Below are positions 14,488-29,029 of a stretch of 31,265 nt of DNA, one piece after another (position 1 is the first letter of the stretch; the number at the start of each line of letters is the position of its first letter). The notes under the pieces are model-generated. The model was not told where the DNA came from. It saw only the letters and a program-made list of their open reading frames with translations, and did not search any database. A program made the position numbers and the translations under genes. The DNA lies in the IMG/VR virus record IMGVR_UViG_3300030451_004253, positions 1 through 31,265 of that record; one strand, 5' to 3'. The DNA comes from a virus.

Positions 14488-14744
14488 GTATAACTTACTC
14501 CGTTAATCGTTTCGACCATTTCTGAGGGCGGCGGTGCAAGGGTCGCACCATCAATAGCAATGTTCGTTCCATTAATCGAATAAGTGTGCCCAGTGTTGAA
14601 ATCAGTAGAGACGATAGTTTCAGTAACATTTTGTGTGGTGCGTGTGACTGCTGACATCGTACCAGAGGAAAAGTTAGGAACGACTGGCACAGCTAAGATT
14701 TGGGAGGTATTTAATATTAATAACAGTGGCAGATAGCGTTTCAT
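14316..14744 (-). CDS. Exported hypothetical protein
   Basis: A 142-aa protein with a signal peptide (MKRYLPLLLILNTSQILA, cleavage probably after residue 18). The mature part is threonine/serine/asparagine-rich and probably beta-structured, with STDFNTGHTYSINGTNIAIDG and ETINGVSYTWTGADL. The motif pattern (T-G-x-T-Y-S-x-N-G-x-N-I) resembles part of the 165-aa exported protein two genes upstream (GSTYSVSGSNIKV), so the two may be distant relatives. The ATG directly follows the TAG of the 31-aa gene, which implies translational coupling. There are no cysteines in the mature part. I recall comparable proteins in marine cyanophages; the role is unknown. Confidence 0.65.
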   Translation of the reverse strand: MKRYLPLLLILNTSQILAVPVVPNFSSGTMSAVTRTTQNVTETIVSTDFNTGHTYSINGTNIAIDGATLAPPPSEMVETINGVSYTWTGADLSQKPNVTIANPGQAFQYVESYVAPGLSNMTTINRTTVLESVTETTSVFSQ

Positions 14745-18161: not shown

Positions 18162-18276
18162 CGACCATTACTTCAGCAAGACTGCTGTAGTATCCTACTC
18201 GCTTTTCATTGCTTTTGGTTTTGTAATACCAACCAAAATGATTCTTAGCTACTTGTATCAATGTACTTCCTCCCAT
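18085..18276 (-). CDS. Small hypothetical protein after the polymerase gene
   Basis: A 63-aa protein starting MGGSTLIQVAKNHFGWYYK, with a compact aromatic segment (RVGYYSSLAEVMVDAYREE) and an acidic, disordered tail (SDGTSEQRDNQSSDE). Its start overlaps the 3' end of the polymerase gene by 19 nt, which indicates coupled translation. The pattern W-Y-Y-K then V-G-Y-Y-x-S-L-x-E-V recalls small AP2-like or integrase N-terminal-like beta-beta-helix domains, but I would not assign it. Function unknown. Confidence 0.55.
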   Translation of the reverse strand: MGGSTLIQVAKNHFGWYYKTKSNEKRVGYYSSLAEVMVDAYREECPTDSDGTSEQRDNQSSDE

Positions 18277-20093
18277 GTGTTCCCTACCTTTACTTCAGCT
18301 AGAGAAGGTACATCTTTCAGCCATAAGGCTTCAGCACTTTCCATGATCCCCTTTAAAAGTTTTGCCCATTCATCAGCGTACTCTTCTTTAACTAAAAGAA
18401 GTATCTCATCGTGAACAGCAGCAGCAATCTTCACAACATCTTCACCAGCTTTATGAACTTCAGGCCATATATTACCTAGAGCACACTTAAGTATCGCTGC
18501 CCCCGCACCTTGTATTGGTGTATTACACCTGACAGTAACCCTGTTCAAATCTCCCTTTAAGTATCTACGCATATTAGTTACAGGAACTCGTATTTCAGGC
18601 CATTCATCATCTTCCGTGGAACGTGCTTCCTCTTGGTTTTCTCTCTGCCACTCTTTAATACCGAAATATGTATTCAACCATCCATCTCTAACAGTCTTTG
18701 CCTGTTCCTGTGACATAAGAACACCTTGAGCACCAGCGTAGTTTCTTAATCCTTCTACACCTGCCCCATAAAGCAATCCAAAGTTAGCGGATTTTGCTAT
18801 CTGTCTATCGCATCCCATCTTTTCGGCTGTGTAATCATGTAAGTCTGCACCCTCTTTAAACGCTTGAATCATATTCATATCGTTAGCTAGAGCAGCAGCT
18901 AATCGTAATTCCATTTGACTGAAGTCTGCATCTACTATTTTCCAGCCTTTAGGAGCTTCAACACAACTTCTAAACTCTTTATCTCTAGGTATCTGCTGAT
19001 TATTAGGTTTAAGAGAACTCATTCTCCCTGTTTCTGCACCTAACTGCATATATGAAGCACGGACAAATCCATCATCAGCCATCTTTTCCTGAATACTTTG
19101 TGCCATCTGTCTTCTCTTCTCTTTTTTCTTCCATTCAACTAATGTCTGGATCGTTTCGGAATCCGCAGCAGCCCTTCTAAGTGCTTCCTTACCTACACTG
19201 GCCTTACCGTTATTATCTGTTGGAGTGTAACCGAGTATAAGTGTTAGTTTGTCTAGTAATTGCTTAGAACTTTTTATATTAAAGCCAGCATACTTTTTAG
19301 TACCTAAACGAATAGCACCTGTATCTTTCGGTCTTAAATTAAAACTACCATCTTCATCTCTAGGAAGCTTTTCTCCTTCAGGTAACGCATTATCTAACTC
19401 TCTTATAAACTCATCTCCCATTTGTTGAACATCAAAAGCTTTATCTTCTTTATACTTTTGAAGAGCCTCTGCGTTCCACGGTAAACCTACCCTCCACATC
19501 TGAGCCATAGCAGGTAAAGCTTGGCATTCTAGTGTATAACTAGCTTTTAGGTTCGCTTTGCATATCTTCTGATCTAATACTTGATCTAACTCAAGTAACA
19601 CTTCTACATCCGTAGCTGCATACTCTAGTTGTTCCTTAGATAACTTAGGTTTAGACCAATCAGATCTCTGTTGTTCTTTAGGTAATTCAACAGATAAATG
19701 TTTATTAGCTAAAGCATCTAAAGAGTGCTTGGCGTGAGGTACACCGTTATATAAAAGTTTGTTAGCTATAAAAGAGCACCTAACATTTCCTCTTACATAT
19801 ATTCCCTGTTCTTGTAACCAACCTAAATCAAATACAGCATTATGGGCTAACCAAAAGCGACACCCATTGTTGAAGAATTTATCTAGCTGATCCCAATCTT
19901 TTTCTTCTAAATCAAAACAATCAATAACAACGATTGTTTTAGCTGTATAGGAACCTAACTGAATCAGCCTTAAACCACCTTTCTTCGGTTGTAACTGGGT
20001 CGTCTCAGTATCGAAGCAAATACTACTGCAAGTATTTAAGCGGTGAAGATGCTCTATCCCATAAAAGACAGAGTAATTTTGGAATGAGGTCAT
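18258..20093 (-). CDS. polA: DNA polymerase I-like (family A) with 3'-5' exonuclease
   Basis: A 611-aa replicative DNA polymerase of family A, without a 5'-3' exonuclease domain. Proofreading site: D28 and E30 in FDTET (Exo I), HNAVFD with D89 (Exo II), Y158 and D162 in YAATD (Exo III). Polymerase site: motif A at D390 (DADFSQMELR), motif B helix with R430, K434, F438 and Y442-G443 (RQIAKSANFGLLYG), motif C at H561-D562-E563. All catalytic residues are present, so it should be active. The residue matching E. coli F762 is phenylalanine (F438). In the phage literature, Phe or Tyr here is associated with virulent phages and Leu with temperate ones. It lies downstream of the helicase-primase gene in one operon. 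A possible own promoter lies just upstream. Confidence 0.95.
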   Translation of the reverse strand: MTSFQNYSVFYGIEHLHRLNTCSSICFDTETTQLQPKKGGLRLIQLGSYTAKTIVVIDCFDLEEKDWDQLDKFFNNGCRFWLAHNAVFDLGWLQEQGIYVRGNVRCSFIANKLLYNGVPHAKHSLDALANKHLSVELPKEQQRSDWSKPKLSKEQLEYAATDVEVLLELDQVLDQKICKANLKASYTLECQALPAMAQMWRVGLPWNAEALQKYKEDKAFDVQQMGDEFIRELDNALPEGEKLPRDEDGSFNLRPKDTGAIRLGTKKYAGFNIKSSKQLLDKLTLILGYTPTDNNGKASVGKEALRRAAADSETIQTLVEWKKKEKRRQMAQSIQEKMADDGFVRASYMQLGAETGRMSSLKPNNQQIPRDKEFRSCVEAPKGWKIVDADFSQMELRLAAALANDMNMIQAFKEGADLHDYTAEKMGCDRQIAKSANFGLLYGAGVEGLRNYAGAQGVLMSQEQAKTVRDGWLNTYFGIKEWQRENQEEARSTEDDEWPEIRVPVTNMRRYLKGDLNRVTVRCNTPIQGAGAAILKCALGNIWPEVHKAGEDVVKIAAAVHDEILLLVKEEYADEWAKLLKGIMESAEALWLKDVPSLAEVKVGNTWEEVH

Positions 20094-20118
20094 GGATTAA
20101 CCTAATGCTTACTCTATT

Positions 20119-20129
20119 AATGTAGCACA
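20119..20129 (-). promoter_or_regulatory. Possible extended -10 promoter before the polymerase gene
   Basis: Minus strand TGTGCTACATT then AATAGAG, in the 36-nt gap before the polymerase start at 20093. It matches the TG-C-TACNNT element seen at 23460 and 28039. No good -35 is visible at 16-17 nt. Confidence 0.35.
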
Positions 20130-20387
20130 CTAATGTATTTTAGACCATTTTTTAATCTTTTTTCGCACTAATTTCTTATCTAATCTAGTCATAAGGCAAA
20201 CCTCAAGACCACTTTCCAAAGCACTTTCTATATGGCAGTTGCAATAAACATCGTTCCAGTAATGAATCTGCTCGACCCCATTAACTTTCCCGTCTTCCCC
20301 AACGCTTGTGTATCTAACAGAGGCTAGTGGTCCGTCTTCTCCATAATCAAATGTATAAGCGCAGATGCGTAAGGAAGGATCACTCAT
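20130..20387 (-). CDS. Small hypothetical protein
   Basis: An 85-aa protein. A beta-rich first half contains RICAYTFDYGEDGPLASVR, then VNGVEQIHYWNDVYCNCHIE with three cysteines in the protein overall clustered here and in LEVCLMTRL. The C-terminus is very basic (KKLVRKKIKKWSK). It overlaps the upstream gene by 8 nt. No known domain. Its place between the helicase-primase and polymerase genes points to replication or a linked control role, but nothing in the sequence shows which. Confidence 0.5.
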   Translation of the reverse strand: MSDPSLRICAYTFDYGEDGPLASVRYTSVGEDGKVNGVEQIHYWNDVYCNCHIESALESGLEVCLMTRLDKKLVRKKIKKWSKIH

Positions 20388-20847
20388 AGGAACCCCTTAA
20401 CTCTTTTGGAACGTAGTATCTATTTTGCTCCAACCATAGTTTCAAAATAAACGGAGGGTAAGTGAAAACAGTACCGTAAGTTTTATCAAAAGCAGAACCT
20501 CTCTCTACTTTGTATTTCCTACATAGGTTAGAGAGTTCCTTACCTATCTCTCCTTTACGAGGTACATCCCAGTTTGCTCCTGTAATATTCTGTAAAGCTC
20601 TAACTGTCATATATTCTGTTATTTTCTCTTTTTCAACTAAGCGAGCTACCTGTAATTCAGTTTTCTGTTGTCTATCGTCTAAATCATTTATTTTACCTTC
20701 ATGCAGTAAAGCACTTTCAGTTAATACTGGTATTGACTGAGCAAGTATATGTGAAAGCTTCTGTAACCTAGAAGCATTGCTCTGTGGTCTTTCAGTAAGA
20801 CCACCAGATTCTTCTGACATAAAGTAGTCCGTGTGTGTGTTATTCAT
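20380..20847 (-). CDS. Hypothetical protein with coiled coil and DNA-binding-like C-terminus
   Basis: A 155-aa protein. Residues 1-25 are polar. Residues 26-75 form heptad-rich helices (ASRLQKLSHILAQ, DDRQQKTELQVARL). The C-terminal half (EYMTVRALQNITG, GEIGKELSNLCRKY, KTYGTVFTYPPFIL, WLEQNRYYVP) looks like a winged-helix or Rha/KilA-type antirepressor C-terminal domain (helix-turn-helix followed by a YP-containing wing). I infer a coiled-coil DNA-binding protein, possibly working with the upstream helicase-primase. It starts 15 nt after the helicase-primase stop. Confidence in coding is good, in function low. Confidence 0.6.
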   Translation of the reverse strand: MNNTHTDYFMSEESGGLTERPQSNASRLQKLSHILAQSIPVLTESALLHEGKINDLDDRQQKTELQVARLVEKEKITEYMTVRALQNITGANWDVPRKGEIGKELSNLCRKYKVERGSAFDKTYGTVFTYPPFILKLWLEQNRYYVPKELRGSYE

Positions 20848-20862
20848 TGTAATACTCTATCG

Positions 20863-23355
20863 CTATATATCTATAATTTGATCTTTTACAACCATATCTA
20901 AGACTTCTTTAGGCTCTACTTTCCACATCTCCCATTCATCAACCCCCTGTGCCTTAGATTCTGTGTCGAAACTCTTATCCGTTCCAGTGGAAGGATTTTC
21001 AACGACAATCGGTTTTGTCGAAACCTCTTTTTTGTCGAAACCTGTTTTTACCTTGGGGGTTTTGACAAAAGTAGGGTTTTGACAATTTGAATTGTCGTTG
21101 AAAGTCGTTCCAGTATCTATATTTTTTAGTTTCGACACACTTTCTGACCCACCCTTAGAATAAGTACCTTTTTTCACTGGAACGCTAAGAGCTTTGTAGT
21201 ACTTCGCAGGTCTTCCTCCTCTTTTCCCTTTTATTTTTGGACCGTCCACTTCTTCTACTAATTTTTGGGCCTTTAATCTTTCTATTGCGTACTTAATTGC
21301 TCTCTCGCTATGTTTTCCTCCTATATCTATTTGGGTTAGTTTCTTATTAGTCCAAGATTTACCACTGTCTCTCATAACTTTTAGTAAAGCTCTGGAGAAA
21401 GCGTTAGGACAATCAAATTGAAGACCTTCTTCTGCTTCTGGGTAACTGGATATTTTATATGTGTAGTCCAGTTTCAGGTTAAATAACATTTTCACATCTG
21501 ATCTATCATCCCTAGATTTTCTTACTTGCACGGAACGTGTATTACCTCCTATAAGTACACCTCTACTACGCACTTCTCCTATCTCTACCTCATCCATTTT
21601 TCTCATATTCCAACTCTCATCAACAGCATTCTTAATAGCTGTAGTACCTCTTTCTGAACCATCCTTGTTGTTATGATGGATAACAATTAAAGAACAGGGG
21701 TGGAATCCATTTTCACTCCCGTTCCTTCTAACAAGTTTTTTGAGAGGGAAAGCATATTCCCTAGCATTTTCACTATAAGGAGTGCTGTTATTGCAACCGT
21801 CTAAGCTATCTATAATTACAAGATCATACTTATATTTATTTTGTCTCTTACTGAATCTTGTGTACCACTGTATGTCCCACTCTTCCTCTACGTGAACATT
21901 TCTCGTATTTTTTATACCTATCTGATCAAATTGTCTTTTTACAACCCTTTCATTTTGATCACCGTTAAGCCATAAGACCTTACCTTTTGGAACTTGTACC
22001 GTATCTCCATAAACTTCAAAAGGAATACCATCCACTATGTGCTTAACAATAGTCATACACATAGCTGTTTTACCTGTTCCACCATCAGCGTGTACTAAGA
22101 GTGTCCAAGGTTTAGGAAGTAGGCCAGGTATCGTGTACTCAAGAGGGCTATCATCTAGATCATCTATACATTTAACCTTGTTACTTTTAGTCCTTTCAAA
22201 CATTTCATGGGCCTCTGCCAGTTCTTCTATATCAGCAGCACTTCTATGTTTACTTTCAATGGCTAATTTATGTAGTGCCTGTGTTCTATAAGCAGGATTC
22301 TCATTTACTGGATCGTTATCTATCTCTATATAACTTTTAATAACATCCGGACCATCAGGAATCTCTTCCTTAAATTTAAGAGGAATAGCAGAAACTTCCT
22401 CTACTAATTTATCTAAACCGTTCTGCTTTAATCTCTTTCTATCTGGGTCTTTTTCATCCGCAAGTCTTATCAAACTACCCATATTTAATCTAGTTCCATC
22501 GTTCCTCCATGTCCTATACCATCTGTCAGCACAAGGATCTTCCCCGTTTTCCCATATATATTTATAATCTGGATCGTTCTTAGACCACTCCCTCCAAAGA
22601 TCTAAACCTTCGTTTCCGTTTAACTCATTATTAATCATCGCCCCTATCTCCCACCAATAATCTTCTTGCTCTGGTCCCTTATATCCAATAACACTTAAAC
22701 AACTAGATATAATTGCAATCTTTTCCTCTTTACTTCTCTTAGACCACCTGTTATCTACATACTTAACATCAACCTCAGTATGTTTCTTCCTGTATTGCTC
22801 TTTCATACGAGCAATCAACCAATCAGGAGCAACTGGAACGTTATTTAAGTCTCCCTTAATTTCGTAACTACCTTCTCCTGAGTAGTAGTCACCAGCAATA
22901 ACACCCTGACCACCCCATAAAACTTCCCAACCTTCATTCTCCGCAGCAGTATGACTAAGAGATTCGACCTCTAACCAATGTTCCTCTGGAACGGTGAATA
23001 AGTATTTAGCAGCGTTTTTCTTAGGTGACGTAACAACAGGAGCCTGATCTAAATCTTTACCCCACTTCTTCTTTATCGCACCTAAGTTTCTATCAACATC
23101 AAAAATTACTAATCCGTCTGACTTAACTCCAGTAAATACACCAATAGCTTTAAACTTCTCTGGCTCTTTTTCAATCATTAATGCAGACTCTTCTACATTA
23201 AGGTTCAATTTCCAAGCCTTGCCTAAAGGTGACTTACCACCAGCAAAAGTATCTGGATCGTTTTCATGCTTCTTAGGTAGTAGAACACCCTTCGCATATA
23301 TCGGACAAGTAGACCAATTTAACGGAATATTAGGGATGAAATTTGTACTACTCAT
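20863..23355 (-). CDS. Primase-polymerase / helicase fusion
   Basis: An 830-aa replication protein with ordered domains. Residues 1-185 look like an archaeo-eukaryotic-type primase-polymerase: the acidic pair D86-V-D88 (IFDVDR), then SPKKNAAKYLF, then GGQGVIAGDYYSGEGSY. Residues 210-300 resemble a PriCT-2-type domain (YWWEIGAMINNEL, LWREWSKND). Residues 405-610 are a RecA/RepA-type helicase: Walker A ADGGTGKTA (K429), Walker B DLVIIDSLDG (D516) and a IVIHHNNK motif (H560-H561). Residues 655-722 form a winged helix (SWTNKKLTQIDIGGKHSE). A disordered tail of about 100 residues follows. The fusion primes and unwinds DNA for the phage polymerase two genes downstream. ATG at 23355 lies only 6 nt from a minus-strand TATAGT, so the message may be nearly leaderless. 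Confidence 0.88.
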   Translation of the reverse strand: MSSTNFIPNIPLNWSTCPIYAKGVLLPKKHENDPDTFAGGKSPLGKAWKLNLNVEESALMIEKEPEKFKAIGVFTGVKSDGLVIFDVDRNLGAIKKKWGKDLDQAPVVTSPKKNAAKYLFTVPEEHWLEVESLSHTAAENEGWEVLWGGQGVIAGDYYSGEGSYEIKGDLNNVPVAPDWLIARMKEQYRKKHTEVDVKYVDNRWSKRSKEEKIAIISSCLSVIGYKGPEQEDYWWEIGAMINNELNGNEGLDLWREWSKNDPDYKYIWENGEDPCADRWYRTWRNDGTRLNMGSLIRLADEKDPDRKRLKQNGLDKLVEEVSAIPLKFKEEIPDGPDVIKSYIEIDNDPVNENPAYRTQALHKLAIESKHRSAADIEELAEAHEMFERTKSNKVKCIDDLDDSPLEYTIPGLLPKPWTLLVHADGGTGKTAMCMTIVKHIVDGIPFEVYGDTVQVPKGKVLWLNGDQNERVVKRQFDQIGIKNTRNVHVEEEWDIQWYTRFSKRQNKYKYDLVIIDSLDGCNNSTPYSENAREYAFPLKKLVRRNGSENGFHPCSLIVIHHNNKDGSERGTTAIKNAVDESWNMRKMDEVEIGEVRSRGVLIGGNTRSVQVRKSRDDRSDVKMLFNLKLDYTYKISSYPEAEEGLQFDCPNAFSRALLKVMRDSGKSWTNKKLTQIDIGGKHSERAIKYAIERLKAQKLVEEVDGPKIKGKRGGRPAKYYKALSVPVKKGTYSKGGSESVSKLKNIDTGTTFNDNSNCQNPTFVKTPKVKTGFDKKEVSTKPIVVENPSTGTDKSFDTESKAQGVDEWEMWKVEPKEVLDMVVKDQIIDI
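20965..21136. repeat. Iteron-like repeats and palindrome, possible origin
   Basis: Inside the 3' end of the helicase-primase gene the word GTCGAAAC occurs three times on the plus strand (20965-20972, 21017-21024, 21034-21041) and once inverted (21129-21136). TTTTGACA occurs twice (21060, 21077). A 16-bp palindrome GACAATT-TG-AATTGTC sits at 21081-21096. The GTCGAAAC copies fall in different reading frames of the gene, which points to constraint on the DNA. Origin function is inference from the analogy with origins inside replication genes such as lambda O. Confidence 0.5.
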
Positions 23356-23387
23356 GTGCTACTATACCTTTGTAAAGTTTAATTTTT

Positions 23388-23424
23388 AACCCTGTCAGGT
23401 ATAGCCAACCTGAGAGGGTTTTTT
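23388..23424 (+). terminator. Plus-strand terminator in the divergent region
   Basis: Stem AACCCT-G-TCAGGT / ACCTGA-G-AGGGTT with one G-G mismatch, a 7-nt loop, then TTTTTT. It lies between the divergent starts at 23355 and 23501, before the SSB promoter, so it would stop antisense read-in to the SSB gene or end a very short leader RNA. Confidence 0.75.
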
Positions 23425-23436
23425 CATTCTAACCCA

Positions 23437-23465
23437 TAGACAAACAAATGTCCATGTGCTACTGT
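23437..23465 (+). promoter_or_regulatory. Promoter of the SSB-like gene
   Basis: TAGACA (23437-23442), a 17-nt spacer, then extended -10 TGC-TACTGT (23460-23465). The expected start of transcription is near 23472, leaving a leader of about 30 nt. CATGTGCTACT at 23453 is an exact copy of the 11-mer at 23353, 100 nt upstream. Confidence 0.6.
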
Positions 23466-23500
23466 AATAGAGCAATTAGGCAACTACGCCACTCTAAAAC

Positions 23501-24112
23501 ATGCCACTCATTTCCAAACGTCTTCGTGACTCATCATCCACAGGCAACTCAAGCTATTTAAAACCATCCGACATCAAAGATGGGGATAGTTTACGTTTCT
23601 CTTTGTTATCTGAAGACGGACTAGACTATTACCTATTTTGGGTACAAGAAGTATCAGGATCAGGAAGAAAGCCTATTCGTTGTGAAAACGATCCTTCTCC
23701 CGAAGATATTGATTCACTTCTAGAGCAAGCTCAAGAAAGATGGGGCAAGGAATACCAACGCCCTGTGAATAAAGATGGAACAGGTAGTGATCCTATAAAA
23801 ATGGCCTCTTCTGTACCTGTTTACAACTTTGAAAAACAGTGCGTCCAAGTACTTGAATGGAGTCAATCAACTATCACTCAAGCACTAGATGAGATAAGTC
23901 AGATGGAAGACTATAAAGACTGTATGACTGAAATTGATCTAGTCATAAAGAGAACAGGACAAGGTAAAGAAACTAGATACAGCGTTAATGCTGTCCCTAG
24001 AAAGAAAGGTGCTACAGCTTCCATTGAGCTTGCATGGAAAGAAACCCAAGAAAAAGGTTTCGATATAAGACGCTTGCTAGATGGGGGAGACCCTTTTAAA
24101 GCAGCAGCTTAA
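23501..24112 (+). CDS. Single-stranded DNA-binding protein-like
   Basis: A 203-aa protein like the single-strand binding proteins (T4 gp32-like) of marine phages. An OB-fold-like core includes DGDSLRFSLLSEDGLDYYLFW and a segment VPVYNFEKQCVQVLEWSQST, followed by TEIDLVIKRTGQGKETRYSV and a NAVPRKKG ending. The order 'x-V-x-x-W-S-Q-x-T-I-x-x-A then D-L-x-I-x-R-x-G-x-G' is what I recall from those proteins. It ends GGDPFKAAA, recalling the short interaction tip of SSB proteins. It would coat the DNA strands exposed by the helicase-primase at 20863-23355, which is divergently transcribed. It has its own promoter and a strong terminator. Confidence 0.7.
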   Translation: MPLISKRLRDSSSTGNSSYLKPSDIKDGDSLRFSLLSEDGLDYYLFWVQEVSGSGRKPIRCENDPSPEDIDSLLEQAQERWGKEYQRPVNKDGTGSDPIKMASSVPVYNFEKQCVQVLEWSQSTITQALDEISQMEDYKDCMTEIDLVIKRTGQGKETRYSVNAVPRKKGATASIELAWKETQEKGFDIRRLLDGGDPFKAAA

Positions 24113-24118
24113 ATAAAC

Positions 24119-24147
24119 AAGGGGTCGCACAGACCCCTTTCTTTTTT
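24119..24147 (+). terminator. Terminator after the SSB-like gene
   Basis: Stem AAGGGGTC / GACCCCTT (24119-24126 and 24132-24139), loop GCACA, then TTTCTTTTTT. A classical rho-independent terminator 7 nt after the SSB stop. Confidence 0.9.
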
Positions 24148-24170
24148 AGTCCTTTTGATATATATTAATT

Positions 24171-25025
24171 ATGGGAACGTGTATTTACTCACCATTAATG
24201 GGAACGCTAGACAAACAGAACGCTCTAGCCGACCTAAGACACTGGAAACTGGAACGAGATGATACCCAAACTTTATATCCACACAGGATATATCGAGATG
24301 CTAAGAAAAATGTATATCATTCAGTAACCCATATCCTTAGTCAAACCGCACCCCAAGAGAAAAAAGATGCACTGGAACGTTGGTTACAAAGACCCAACAG
24401 TTACACCGAAAGGGACATTGCTTGCAAACGTGGAGAACTTGCACACTCACATGCAGAATACCTTCTCAAAACTGGTGCGAAGCTTTCAAGAAACGCTGGC
24501 AACAACCGAGGAGTCTGGAAGACTGGATCGGACGGACTTGAACGGTGCCCTAGCAAAGTTACAAAGTGGGCACTCGAAAAGGCAGCAGAAAACGCCCCTA
24601 AAGTTGGTTTCTCAGCCAGTGGCTACGCCCGAGGCTTACGGTCTTTCATCCTGGAACGTGTAACGGCAATCCACGCATCCGAATTTAGCGTCTACAACGA
24701 ACAACACGGCTACGCAGGAACAGCAGACGCCCTAATAGATATAGACGGAGACGGCCCATTCATAGCCGACTGGAAGACTGCAAAAGATACACGTAGCGAA
24801 TCCATCATTGACCAATTTTGCTGCCAACTTGGAGCGTACAGCCTAGCTTTAAAATCCCTAATAGGACTCCGCCCTAAGAAAGGAGCAGTAATCATCGCTA
24901 GACGTAGCGGTGCCCCACAAATAAAAATCCTCAGCGAACTCGAATTAAGAGCCGCTGAGGTATGGTTCCTGGAACGTAACGAACAGTACCAGCAGTCTTT
25001 ACAAAAGTCAGTCAGTCATATTTAA
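24171..25025 (+). CDS. PD-(D/E)XK nuclease, RecB/Cas4-like
   Basis: A 284-aa nuclease of the PD-(D/E)XK superfamily. RecB-type signatures: RGELAHSHAE at residues 88-96 (histidine and glutamate motif), GTADAL with D186, ADWKTAK with D200 and K202, and QLGAY with Q219 and Y223. These residues form the metal site in RecB, lambda-exo-like and Cas4 nucleases. No Cas4 iron-sulphur cysteine set is seen. It likely trims DNA ends for recombination-dependent replication or packaging, and follows the SSB gene, which fits. The start is uncertain: ATG at 24171 or ATG at 24198, both in the same ATTA-ATGGGAACG context. The last 14 nt overlap the convergent gene. Confidence 0.85.
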   Translation: MGTCIYSPLMGTLDKQNALADLRHWKLERDDTQTLYPHRIYRDAKKNVYHSVTHILSQTAPQEKKDALERWLQRPNSYTERDIACKRGELAHSHAEYLLKTGAKLSRNAGNNRGVWKTGSDGLERCPSKVTKWALEKAAENAPKVGFSASGYARGLRSFILERVTAIHASEFSVYNEQHGYAGTADALIDIDGDGPFIADWKTAKDTRSESIIDQFCCQLGAYSLALKSLIGLRPKKGAVIIARRSGAPQIKILSELELRAAEVWFLERNEQYQQSLQKSVSHI

Positions 25026-25765: not shown

Positions 25766-26114
25766 TGGAACGGAACATAATTAAGTGCTTAAATTTGCCT
25801 AATAAATTGGCATAATGTTGCTGCGCCTTCATGTATCTTTCTGGTTCTTCCGTAGAATCAATAGAAAGCATAATGTCCTCAGCATCCCTAAGTAGAACTG
25901 ATGGATGGATCGCTTTATACCCACCCTCAGTTTCTACCTTGTCTGTTCTAAAGTTTTGATAAGCAGCTCTATACCATTCGTAAGAAGTAGTGGAGCTTAT
26001 TCCGTAATCTTGTTGCAACTCAGTTGTTACATTCCTACGGATATGCTTATCTTTAATTTTTAGATTGTCTAATAGAGCTTGTTCTATAAACTCTATCCCT
26101 TCTTGTTTATCCAT
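25752..26114 (-). CDS. Helical DNA-binding-like protein
   Basis: A 120-aa, all-helical protein. The central part (NVTTELQQDYGISSTTSYEWYRAAY) has helix-turn-helix spacing, with a homeodomain-like recognition helix. The C-terminal part (LLRDAEDIMLSIDS, YMKAQQHYANLLGKFK) forms a helical bundle. The layout is similar to that of the terS-like protein at 29693-30136 (a YGISSTTSYEWYRAA segment against EGIGRDTAWADWKKV), followed by a helical pair. It could be a second DNA-binding or packaging-related protein, or just another HTH regulator. It overlaps the next gene by 14 nt. Confidence 0.55.
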   Translation of the reverse strand: MDKQEGIEFIEQALLDNLKIKDKHIRRNVTTELQQDYGISSTTSYEWYRAAYQNFRTDKVETEGGYKAIHPSVLLRDAEDIMLSIDSTEEPERYMKAQQHYANLLGKFKHLIMFRSNETH

Positions 26115-26146
26115 AATAAAAAAGTCCGTAATTCCCGTAAAAATTA

Positions 26147-26467
26147 CTAAACGCTAATCACGCAATCTCTTACAAGATCTAAACGAATACCTTCTTTATT
26201 TAGTGGATCGTCAGTTACTAATAATTTTGATTTGACTAAAAGTTCGATCACTTCTATATCACTGAAAACCGTAATGTTATAAATGTGATCCTCTCTAAGC
26301 GCATAAATGTGATTTAGGGTACTGAAATAAAAATCCCTAATATCGCCGCTTTTACAATCCCATTTATCTGGCTCGATATAGGTTAAAAGGATACCTGACC
26401 CTTTAACGTGTAACTCATTTTTACCCTTTAGATGGATAAAAATTTTATCGTTTGGTTGAAAACCCAT
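26147..26467 (-). CDS. Hypothetical protein
   Basis: A 106-aa protein: a beta-rich first half (DKIFIHLKGKNELHVKGSGILL, then DKWDCKSGDIRDFYF) and an alpha/beta end (VIELLVKSKLLVTDD, GIRLDLVRDCVISV). No catalytic motif, membrane segment or signal peptide. It lies 32 nt before the helical gene, in the same direction. Upstream is a 90-nt stretch of GTATC/GATAC half-sites, which may control this block. I do not recognise it. Confidence 0.5.
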   Translation of the reverse strand: MGFQPNDKIFIHLKGKNELHVKGSGILLTYIEPDKWDCKSGDIRDFYFSTLNHIYALREDHIYNITVFSDIEVIELLVKSKLLVTDDPLNKEGIRLDLVRDCVISV

Positions 26468-26503
26468 AATAAGAGTGTCCGATAGTGGTGGAACTTCTTT
26501 AAT

Positions 26504-26561
26504 GTATCACAGTAGATAGGAGTATCTAGTAGTTTGTTTTGATACTGTAATAAAGTATCAA
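26504..26561. promoter_or_regulatory. Cluster of GTATC/GATAC half-sites with a 23-bp palindrome
   Basis: GTATC at 26504 and 26522, then the palindrome TTGATACT-GTAATAA-AGTATCAA (26539-26561). These four half-sites lie in a 90-nt space between the starts and stops of minus-strand genes. The palindrome overlaps the TGA of the 58-aa gene. The arrangement looks like an operator. No repressor is identified. Confidence 0.45.
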
Positions 26562-26734
26562 CTGTTTAGAAAAGTATTTTGTGAACAGTAAGGATTAACA
26601 TCTACATCTTCTATGTGTCCTATGTACTGATTTTTATTTTCATAGTATTCATCTAAATAATCGTTATAGTCTAGACCTTGCTTAAACCAATTTGGATATT
26701 TAGAACAGAATTGTTCCCTAGTTAGATAATCCAT
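26558..26734 (-). CDS. 58-aa acidic hypothetical protein
   Basis: A minus-strand frame starting MDYLTREQFCSKYPNWFK, with YNDYLDEYYENKNQY and ending SQNTFLNS. It is rich in tyrosine, aspartate and asparagine, and most likely a small helical protein. The first residues (LTREQFCSKYPNWF) recall helix-turn-helix excisionase-like starts. Ninety nt separate it from the next gene. A possible promoter (minus strand TACAAT at 26786-26791) lies upstream. No family is certain, and there is no Shine-Dalgarno sequence. Confidence 0.5.
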   Translation of the reverse strand: MDYLTREQFCSKYPNWFKQGLDYNDYLDEYYENKNQYIGHIEDVDVNPYCSQNTFLNS

Positions 26735-26785
26735 GATGGAACGTTAGCTAAAATCTATATACCATATTTTAGGCTAAAAAACTCT

Positions 26786-26791
26786 ATTGTA
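26786..26791 (-). promoter_or_regulatory. Possible -10 (TACAAT) upstream of the minus-strand accessory genes
   Basis: Minus strand AATAATACAATAGAG matches the TACAATAG core of the plus-strand promoters at 28039 and 28734. No clear -35 is seen. It would drive the 58-aa gene and those after it. Confidence 0.3.
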
Positions 26792-26819
26792 TTATTTTAC
26801 TAACATTTCGATTTTTAGC

Positions 26820-26847
26820 TTGTCTAATCTACCTTATGCTGTATAGT
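26820..26847 (+). promoter_or_regulatory. Promoter of the DUF932-like gene
   Basis: TTGTCT (26820-26825), a 16-nt spacer, TATAGT (26842-26847). If used, transcription starts near 26854, which favours the ATG at 26875 over the one at 26836. Confidence 0.45.
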
Positions 26848-26874
26848 TATAAATGTAATACATCAGGTCCATCC

Positions 26875-27960
26875 ATGACTTTCATTAACAACGAGAGACA
26901 CTATCAAACTGAATTAGATACTGTCTATTCAAAATCTAACCCTATTATGGTGGAACGTCAGAATCAAAGTTCTACATTTAGAAGATTAGGTTATCAAAGG
27001 CAAGGCAATGAAAGTATTATTGGAGAAACTATTACGGATAATAAGACTAACGAGCAAATCTTCTATGACACAGGTTTAACTTTTGACGTTCATACAGTTC
27101 CTTTAGTTGCTGATACTGCTAAATGTGACACTATTCACTCTAATGGTTACATAGATGTCCCTAACGCTAAAGCATTAGTAAATGGTAGAACTGGAACTGT
27201 TTTAAGTGCTGTCAGTGGAACGTATCAACCATTAAACAACTCAAGAACTTTAGATATTATTGAGCAAAACAAAGATTTTTTAGATATTGAAAATGTGATT
27301 AATGGACAAGGTGGTGCTTTTAGTTTTGTTAGTTGTGCAATGAAGGATAATATCGGAGAAGTATCTCAAGGGGATGCAATTAAAAGAAGGATGATCTTTA
27401 TTAATAGTTTTAATAATGCTTATTCTTATAAAGTAGTAATTATTGATTTTAGGTTATTTTGTTTCAATCAAATGGGCCGAATAAATAAGTCTAAAAATAA
27501 ACTTACTATGAAACATTCAAAAAACATTACTAACTGGTCTAAGCATCTACCTGAATATATCGCTCAAAATAGAGATGATTTGCAAGAATCAATCGAACAA
27601 TTTAAAGCAATGAAAAAAGTTGAATTAAAAGGTACTGAAACCCTTAAAGAGATTTTCCTTCATTCATTACAAGATAAACTCAAAGGTCAGATTACAGATA
27701 AGCAAACTAAGGAAAAAAGAAATAAAACTATTAATGATATTGATAAAGAGTGGAATGAAGTAAAAAATAATTACTATAGAGATAATGACTTTTCTTTATA
27801 TGGTGCGTTAAATGCTATTACCTACCAACAGACACACAGTGAAGGTAGAATATTAGATGAGAATAAAAACGCTATGAATAGATACCAGTCTTTAATCGCG
27901 GGCCCCTGCGGTAATCGAATAGATATAGCTAGAGAAAAGTGCTTACAACTTACTAGATAA
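26875..27960 (+). CDS. DUF932-like phage/plasmid protein
   Basis: A protein of 361 aa from ATG 26875 (MTFINNERHYQTELD); an upstream in-frame ATG at 26836 would add 13 residues but lies within a likely promoter. The pattern matches the DUF932 / phage-plasmid-like family: an N-terminal region with VLSAVSGTYQPLNNSRTLD, a central RRMIFINSFNNAYSYKVVIIDFRLFCFNQMG, and a helical end with KHSKNITNW and NMFNRY-type ends (NAMNRYQSLIAG). The function of this family is unknown; members are common in phages, plasmids and genomic islands. It is the first gene of the A+T-rich accessory block and is followed by a strong terminator. Confidence 0.7.
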   Translation: MTFINNERHYQTELDTVYSKSNPIMVERQNQSSTFRRLGYQRQGNESIIGETITDNKTNEQIFYDTGLTFDVHTVPLVADTAKCDTIHSNGYIDVPNAKALVNGRTGTVLSAVSGTYQPLNNSRTLDIIEQNKDFLDIENVINGQGGAFSFVSCAMKDNIGEVSQGDAIKRRMIFINSFNNAYSYKVVIIDFRLFCFNQMGRINKSKNKLTMKHSKNITNWSKHLPEYIAQNRDDLQESIEQFKAMKKVELKGTETLKEIFLHSLQDKLKGQITDKQTKEKRNKTINDIDKEWNEVKNNYYRDNDFSLYGALNAITYQQTHSEGRILDENKNAMNRYQSLIAGPCGNRIDIAREKCLQLTR

Positions 27961-27986
27961 ATACATTAATTAGCTGATAATCTGTG

Positions 27987-28012
27987 AGGGACTTGTAAAT
28001 AGTCCCTTTTTT
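27987..28012 (+). terminator. Terminator after the DUF932-like gene
   Basis: Stem AGGGACT / AGTCCCT with loop TGTAAAT, then TTTTTT. The stem sequence is the same as that of the terminator at 28685-28709. Confidence 0.9.
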
Positions 28013-28016
28013 AATG

Positions 28017-28044
28017 TTGATTATCCTGTCTAGTATGCTACAAT
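28017..28044 (+). promoter_or_regulatory. Promoter of the 181-aa gene
   Basis: TTGATT (28017-28022), a 16-nt spacer, extended -10 TGC-TACAAT (28039-28044), followed by AGATTTAAATTCACCC as the leader. There is no Shine-Dalgarno before ATG 28072. Confidence 0.7.
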
Positions 28045-28071
28045 AGATTTAAATTCACCCAAAATTTTAAA

Positions 28072-28617
28072 ATGCCTTTTCAAACTGTAGAAACTGGTTT
28101 TACTTCTAAAACTTCTTTTGTAACTGCTAGATCAATTTTGATCAAAAAATTAGATATGTATAAAGAAATTTTAGATGAAGTTACAAGAGCTTATGAAATT
28201 TTAAAAACTTATGAAGGCAAAAAGCTAGGTAAAAAGACTAGAGAAAAGATTAATGATGATTTTTATAATAACGGATTGGGCTGTTATTTTGCTAATGTTG
28301 ATGATGCTTTTGTCTGGTACGTTAGGAACGATAATCATGTGAGAAACTTTGGAAGTAAGCATGATTGGCAACTAACAATTTATAAAGATATGCATGAAGC
28401 TTCACCAAAGGTAAACAGCGAAAAGATTATTAATGATAATAAAGGTTATTTTGTAGAGTTTAAAAAACAGATTGAAGATATAGAGAAAAATCTTTCTAGT
28501 GATGCGCCAGAGCGATTAGATGATTTACACAAAGATCTAGACACTAGAAAAAAGAATTTAGAGAAGGTGTCAAAGAGTTTAAATTTAGATACTTATTCAA
28601 CTTTTTATTGGTCTTAA
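28072..28617 (+). CDS. Helical hypothetical protein in its own transcription unit
   Basis: A 181-aa protein, largely coiled or helical: TARSILIKKLDMYKEILDEV, YEILKTYEGKK, and a C-terminal KKQIEDIEKNLSS with LDDLHKDLDTRKKNLEKV. A small beta segment with GCYFANVDDAFVWYVRND and KHDWQLTIYKD lies between. It has no membrane span or cysteine motif. Promoter and terminator frame it as a single-gene unit, and its codons are A/T-ending like its neighbours. Function unknown; such stand-alone genes are often early or accessory (host-takeover) genes. Confidence 0.6.
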   Translation: MPFQTVETGFTSKTSFVTARSILIKKLDMYKEILDEVTRAYEILKTYEGKKLGKKTREKINDDFYNNGLGCYFANVDDAFVWYVRNDNHVRNFGSKHDWQLTIYKDMHEASPKVNSEKIINDNKGYFVEFKKQIEDIEKNLSSDAPERLDDLHKDLDTRKKNLEKVSKSLNLDTYSTFYWS

Positions 28618-28684
28618 AAATGTTTATTTTAATTTGTATTGTATGACATAGAGATCATTAACTACAAATAGAATATAGATTTTA

Positions 28685-28709
28685 AGGGACTTTTTACAGT
28701 CCCTTTTTT
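28685..28709 (+). terminator. Terminator after the 181-aa gene
   Basis: Stem AGGGACT / AGTCCCT with loop TTTTAC, then TTTTT, 68 nt after the stop. The stem arms are the same as those at 27987. Confidence 0.9.
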
Positions 28710-28711
28710 AC

Positions 28712-28739
28712 TTGCGTGTCTGTTCTACTGTGTTACAAT
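28712..28739 (+). promoter_or_regulatory. Promoter of the 75-aa gene
   Basis: TTGCGT (28712-28717), a 16-nt spacer, TG-T-TACAAT (28734-28739). The leader GTAATTCACCCACAATTTC closely matches that at 28051-28070. Confidence 0.7.
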
Positions 28740-28766
28740 AGATATGTAATTCACCCACAATTTCAA

Positions 28767-28994
28767 ATGATCAACAAACTTTGCAAGTCTTTACCTGATG
28801 GATCTTTTCTAGTATTTGCAAAACATTATAGAGACAATTACAACAAAGTAAAATTTATTGCTAACTTCTCAGCCTGTGCAGATATGGAAAAGTCTATTGA
28901 TAAGTGGTTAACTGCTTGTTTATCAAGTGACCTTTGGGGTATTGAATATTCCAAAATTAGAGAATCTGAAGTCACTGTAATACTTTCTTTTTAG
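28767..28994 (+). CDS. Small hypothetical protein
   Basis: A 75-aa protein: MINKLCKSLPDGSFLVFAK, then YRDNYNKVKFIANFSACAD, a helix (MEKSIDKWLTACL) and a final strand (SEVTVILSF), a small alpha/beta fold. The frame is open 17 codons further upstream, but that part is the promoter and leader, so I take ATG 28767. That ATG sits at the same place in the leader as the ATG of the 181-aa gene. No family is recognised. Confidence 0.6.
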   Translation: MINKLCKSLPDGSFLVFAKHYRDNYNKVKFIANFSACADMEKSIDKWLTACLSSDLWGIEYSKIRESEVTVILSF

Positions 28995-29029
28995 GTCTTT
29001 AACCGTACTATTTCTATAACTTACTAACT

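Follow-up and report, generated by a model that had tools for sequence, protein, structure and literature searches.

To our knowledge, replication origins of uncultured phages have rarely been located. The stretch of DNA analysed here (the window) is a virus record of 31,265 bases containing a terminase gene and a replication block, and it raises the question of why a cluster of short repeated words lies within the codons for the disordered tail of a primase-helicase. The original prediction had proposed a replication origin at this place. We asked at which level, DNA, RNA or protein, the words are maintained, and which function best accounts for them.

The gene and its disordered tail

The gene carrying the cluster encodes a protein matched by the Prim-Pol, PriCT_2 and AAA_25 families of Pfam, the last with an E value of 3e-15. 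AlphaFold2 folds residues 650-722 as helix-helix-helix-strand-strand, both in the full-length protein and with the domain alone. Foldseek matches this region to MarR/PadR-type winged helices (best E 5e-3), and the copy in one relative, L105, passes the Pfam cut-off for HTH_12. Residues 726-812 have pLDDT values below 50, with 10-residue means of about 26-34 over most of the tail. The predicted arrangement, a winged helix immediately ahead of a disordered tail, is thus borne out by the structural models. The two features are as follows.

20863..23355, minus strand: gene for the PrimPol - PriCT_2 - AAA_25 helicase - winged helix protein, 830 aa
21190..21408, minus strand: winged helix at residues 650-722, the candidate array reader (AlphaFold2, Foldseek and, for the L105 copy, Pfam)

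Beyond the disordered tail, a short helix predicted at residues 807-823 (window 20884-20937) is well kept in close relatives, and an aromatic/acidic motif, e.g. FWE or WD, terminates the tails of many relatives. This C-terminal end is possibly a protein-interaction tail.

Six mirrored sites

The array consists of six sites of the form TGTC[GA]AAAC, three on the plus and three on the minus strand, mirror-symmetric about position 21050 and located within the disordered-tail codons. Four GTCGAAAC words, one of them inverted, had been noticed originally, and they are present as placed (20965-20972, 21017-21024 and 21034-21041 on the plus strand; 21129-21136 on the minus strand). They exceed chance: the whole window holds five copies versus 0.56 expected, a count of five or more being reached in 0 of 100 shuffles, and the fifth copy is isolated at 14509. 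Two TTTTGACA words described with them, at 21060 and 21077, are real but not rare as a word, with two in the window versus 2.6 expected and at least two in 74 of 100 shuffles. A search allowing one mismatch revealed two further inverted copies, TGTCAAAAC, at 21059-21067 and 21076-21084 on the minus strand. Both TTTTGACA words lie inside these copies, and the true count is therefore six sites. What had been read as a 16-bp palindrome at 21081-21096 proved to be a pair of 7-bp arms, GACAATT and AATTGTC, flanking a 2-nt spacer. The claim that the copies lie in different reading frames is correct for the site at 21016, which is in another frame, but the sites at 21033 and 20964 both read TTC-GAC. 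The intervals between the sites also carry CAACGACAAT, which forms a mirrored pair, and ACTGGAACG, which occurs twice in direct orientation; the CAACGACAAT of half-array 1 occupies the place of an extra inverted site in the relative L081. The sites and words are listed below.

21129..21137, minus strand: site 1, TGTCGAAAC
21076..21084, minus strand: site 2, TGTCAAAAC
21059..21067, minus strand: site 3, TGTCAAAAC
21033..21041, plus strand: site 4, TGTCGAAAC, inverted relative to sites 1-3
21016..21024, plus strand: site 5, TGTCGAAAC
20964..20972, plus strand: site 6, TGTCGAAAC
21091..21100, minus strand: paired word CAACGACAAT of half-array 1, with its mirror partner at 21000-21009
21000..21009, plus strand: paired word CAACGACAAT of half-array 2
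21106..21114, minus strand: word ACTGGAACG of half-array 1, kept in most relatives
20980..20988, minus strand: word ACTGGAACG of half-array 2, kept in most relatives

Relatives of the gene

No DNA-level match to the window was found among phage records. A tblastn search of phage and plasmid records returned partial protein matches of 25-31% identity in phages and plasmids, and other tblastn searches returned none. Relatives were instead collected by protein, DNA-pattern and helicase-alignment scans of viral contigs, giving at least 109 genes complete to the stop codon. Each of the three final helicase scans contributed no more than 80 loci, and one of them detected 229 relative-encoding stretches; the 109 genes are hence a sample. 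A scan of genome contigs with the helicase profile detected no relatives. Scanning the collection for partial arrays yielded nine stretches: five on contigs of gene relatives, of which L015 was new, and four on contigs that lack the gene (L010-L013). The latter were taken as chance matches in other genes, and the array was rejected as a mobile element.

Selection on the DNA

If the words were kept for the sake of the DNA, synonymous change should be suppressed across them. Disjoint pairs of relatives were used for this comparison because shared history would otherwise be counted many times. Codons 735-793 define the core of the element.

20977..21153, minus strand: codons 735-793, suppressed synonymous change, core of the element (observed/expected 0.28, 28 disjoint pairs)

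Across the 28 disjoint pairs, these codons hold 64 synonymous changes versus 232.3 expected (Poisson P 4e-39), and the lowest observed/expected ratio among 691 other windows of equal width is 0.84. Amino-acid change amounts to 0.11 in codons 735-793 versus 0.04 in the rest of the gene. A wider comparison of 1026 of the 1770 pairs among 60 non-redundant relatives gave synonymous observed/expected ratios of 0.14-0.47 over codons 735-793 and of at least 0.62 elsewhere in the gene. Five close relatives display the same behavior over codons 721-760: 21-34% of residues differ, and among the unchanged residues just 5-6% show synonymous change, versus 31-37% in codons 621-720.

Turnover of the site word

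The spacing of the sites, >53>17>26<17<52< in coding orientation, recurs in 43 of 54 relatives. Exceptions are five genes without the first site, two with 29 at the center, three with an extra overlapping match and one that is irregular. This count leaves out six relatives with CCGG- or TCGG-type words; one of these six, L081, has eight sites in mirrored order. The word itself differs between lineages. It is TGTC[GAT]AAAC in the window, L005 and L006, TG[TCA]CAAAAC in L007, L008 and L015, TGTA[AT]AAAC in a large group, TGTA[ATG]AAAG in L085 and L091, TCGGAAAAG in L081 and TGTC[TG]AAAG in L172, with other words in further lineages. Among ten representatives, the mean distance from site to site is 0.10 within a genome versus 0.24 between genomes of different type. 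The sites of one genome are turning over in concert between lineages. This bears on loss of the repeats in close relatives, which had been named as grounds for refutation. The exact word GTCGAAAC is absent from L007, L008 and L015, but the sites stay in place with their word changed; because a genome's sites change in concert, what L007 has lost is GTCGAAAC and not its sites.

A blind search for a mirrored four-site core used no preset word and left out duplicate tails and one tail containing N. Of 97 unique tails, 94 scored better than every one of their 60 shuffles. The exceptions were L026 and L184, with one equally good shuffle each, and L167, with 40 of 60; L167, considered as a further array straddling the stop codon, was rejected on this result. 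At all 60 of 60 loci (579,345 bases) the best site cluster lies in the gene tail only, a scan that tests uniqueness and not discovery because the per-lineage words were picked from the tails, and whose words fit CCGG lineages poorly (1-3 sites in L026, L042 and L080). Site clusters are confined to the gene tail also in five longer records, the window included.

Two observations concern individual lineages. Sites in the tail of L175 seem mixed, with TGTAAAAAG beside TGCGAAAAC-like words, and this is perhaps a lineage caught between two site words. Further words flanking the array were seen by eye in L044, L081, L106 and their relatives, namely CTCTC-CGCG to its left and, to its right, GGGTATATAGAG or CGTGTGAATAGGG, in part mirrored. 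The non-coding DNA of L106 also carries a version of the word found on the right.

Arrays that straddle the stop codon

In four relatives, L106-L109, the protein terminates about 40 residues early and the stop codon falls between the two half-arrays. Sites 1-3 are coding, and sites 4-6 begin 3-79 nt past the stop codon with spacing of 17 and 52. Over 110 nt, the non-coding half in L106 and in L107 matches the coding half in L112 at 71% (E 1e-12 and 1e-13). The four are close kin with identical helicase cores, so the mid-array stop represents one event. The comparison proposed originally, of whether repeats are kept when the protein tail changes, here has a clear outcome: the protein tail is cut short and the second half-array persists as non-coding DNA with the same spacing. 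The accompanying view that the protein does not require the repeats agrees with sites being kept wherever the tail changes, even with half of them past a stop codon. Collectively, suppressed synonymous change, fixed spacing, concerted turnover, the half-array past the stop codon and the blind search indicate a DNA element as opposed to a protein repeat, an overlapping reading frame or a conserved RNA hairpin. That the array is a DNA-level site array, family-wide, is close to certain.

Function of the array

We propose that the element is a putative iteron-type replication origin embedded at the 3' end of the gene for the phage's own initiator, a reading that we consider probable. Several regularly spaced copies of an initiator-sized word are found, always in the tail of the primase-helicase-winged-helix gene. 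An origin is the best functional reading because the array is single-copy per genome, always in the initiator gene, iteron-like and next to a winged helix, by which it is probably bound. As a mechanism, the winged helix directly before the tail would bind the sites, and each half-array would seat one fused primase-helicase ring, the two rings facing opposite ways. The rings would then separate the strands and prime a pair of diverging forks for the neighboring family A DNA polymerase to extend. The disordered protein tail would largely be a by-product, that is, whatever the origin sequence encodes.

Co-variation of sites and protein was assessed in 43 full-length relatives. Site distance correlates with winged-helix distance at r 0.94, with helicase distance at 0.83 and with primase distance at 0.79, a ranking that could stem from the physical closeness of winged helix and sites on the DNA. 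Counting against such a pairing, L006 retains the sites of the window despite divergence of its winged helix at a third of positions. Between the window and L007, most identity values are 0.60-0.90 in the stretch between about 1440 and 60 bp ahead of the stop codon and 0.9 or more in the flanks, as if helicase, winged helix and array had been exchanged as one cassette by recombination (window about 20923-22303). In the recognition helix, the residue after 'AI' agrees with the majority site base 4 in 58 of 61 tips, K/R accompanying C and V/I/Q/T/A accompanying A, a count that leaves out ten tips without an A/C majority and has L175, L112 and L113 as exceptions. This match represents one shared change on the helicase tree and is therefore not counted as proof of a recognition code.

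GC skew, suggested originally as a check, did not mark the array: third-position skew has the same sign on either side of it, in the window and in flanking genes of the long records. Within window 18258-25025, plus-strand third-position GC skew is negative in larger genes (at least 150 aa) of both orientations, and is thus not simply a coding-strand effect. In the window, the DNA beside the array is no more than slightly enriched in AT (0.76 at 20850-20899 versus a window 95th percentile of 0.74). Elsewhere in the window, GC content falls to about 0.29-0.31 at 26001-29000, around a DUF932 gene, versus 0.39 overall.

Other functions were weighed against an origin. It seems unlikely that the array is an operator or other regulatory element, through which the protein or another phage regulator controls transcription of the replication operon with no role in initiation. 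A repressor would also be compatible with arrays of binding sites that turn over in concert, and the gene that follows in the window (20380-20847) weakly matches a family of transcriptional regulators (E 0.0013). However, the array lies at the end of a coding region and not at a promoter, the ORF lists of G002-G004 have no regulator-like gene in the corresponding place, and a pair of mirrored half-arrays, 200 bp long, would be unusual for an operator. Partition, packaging and site-specific recombination also use inverted site arrays, and a role in one of these DNA transactions would fit the layout of the sites. We judge it improbable, since no partner gene for partition, packaging or recombination was recognized among the scanned genes and linkage is invariably to the replication gene.

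A functional hairpin, acting either as RNA within the primase-helicase mRNA or in single-strand initiation, would explain the strong fold of the coding strand (z -6.1 as RNA and -7.3 as DNA; -5.0 to -6.8 in four relatives). That fold arises because the sites are inverted. Just 6 of 54 relatives pair at the center of sites 3-4, and for sites 2-5 two positions are paired in 20 and 16 relatives; only microRNA families match in Rfam, far below gathering scores. With key pairs not kept across the 54 relatives, though each site word is conserved, we rejected a conserved RNA hairpin and regard a hairpin function of either kind as very improbable. Finally, a protein repeat or an overlapping reading frame, either of which might be suspected from an array that is coding in most relatives, can practically be dismissed, as amino acids vary and codon choice does not, sites of L106-L109 lie past the stop codon, and the five alternative frames are interrupted by stops in 60, 60, 57, 30 and 58 of 60 relatives.

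Returning to the putative origin, an extended version is tentative, and we give it slightly less than even weight. One gene may form a complete portable replicon, encoding primase, helicase and origin-binding domain, with its own tail codons serving as an origin of two mirror-image platforms that seat two rings head to head. The disordered tail would be origin read-through with no sequence function of its own, its amino acids drifting with the site word. In the L106-L109 lineage, the mid-array stop codon would under this arrangement fall mid-origin.

Comparison with known systems

The lambda origin comprises initiator-binding repeats within the coding sequence of gene O (PMC5043065). These are described as 19-bp repeats with internal inverted symmetry (PMC5043065). 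The present element instead has six short sites, arranged as two mirrored half-arrays at the extreme end of its gene. As in lambda, the repeats of the window and of most relatives are contained in the initiator's coding sequence; in L106-L109 half of them lie outside it. No lambda O family was present among Pfam or PHROGs matches, the protein being of PrimPol/AAA_25 type. Lambda O reportedly recruits a separate helicase, whereas here primase, helicase and probable DNA-binding domain are fused in one protein. The N15 origin is likewise said to lie within repA, and the origin repeats of P4 reportedly lie outside the alpha gene.

The origin proposed for pRN1 and phage BIP-1/BPP-1 is a large inverted element on the 3' side of the gene for a primase-helicase-winged-helix protein (PMC4234260). 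Shared features are an archaeo-eukaryotic type primase, a helicase and a C-terminal winged helix in one protein, along with a two-directional model (PMC4234260). Those systems are described with an SF3 helicase and a stem-loop after the gene, without iterons (PMC4234260). The window protein, by contrast, has an AAA_25 (RecA-like) helicase, most relatives carry the element within the gene, and the words of the element but not their pairing are conserved. Pfam gave no SF3 helicase family match in the window protein, and for a base-paired stem-loop 3' of the gene of the pRN1/BPP-1 kind, pairing is not kept at key positions. P4 alpha combines primase, helicase and a C-terminal winged helix that binds origin repeats (PMC4234260). 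Its primase is described as bacterial-type (Toprim) (PMC4234260), whereas the window protein has Prim-Pol and PriCT_2 matches. The replication gene of PY54 and N15, encoding RepA, is reported to be sufficient as a replicon, so that the origin travels with the gene (PMC10612081); a gene acting alone as replicon with its origin carried along would be the resemblance to the present case. In mycobacterial prophages, an origin has been suggested upstream of or within repA (PMC7157519). Among open-licence papers we recognized no description of the element reported here, and a candidate gene-internal iteron origin with mirrored half-arrays in a fused PrimPol-helicase-winged-helix gene is likely new.

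Significance

From selection acting on DNA inside a coding gene, an origin is predicted at base resolution in about a hundred phage contigs, and its probable reader is encoded next to it. Site words of several kinds, tied to different recognition helices, make co-evolution of initiator and origin directly testable. The tail is also a protein region whose sequence appears to be dictated by a DNA site and not by protein function. For phages without a close cultured relative among the phage and plasmid records searched, the gene represents a candidate one-gene replicon.
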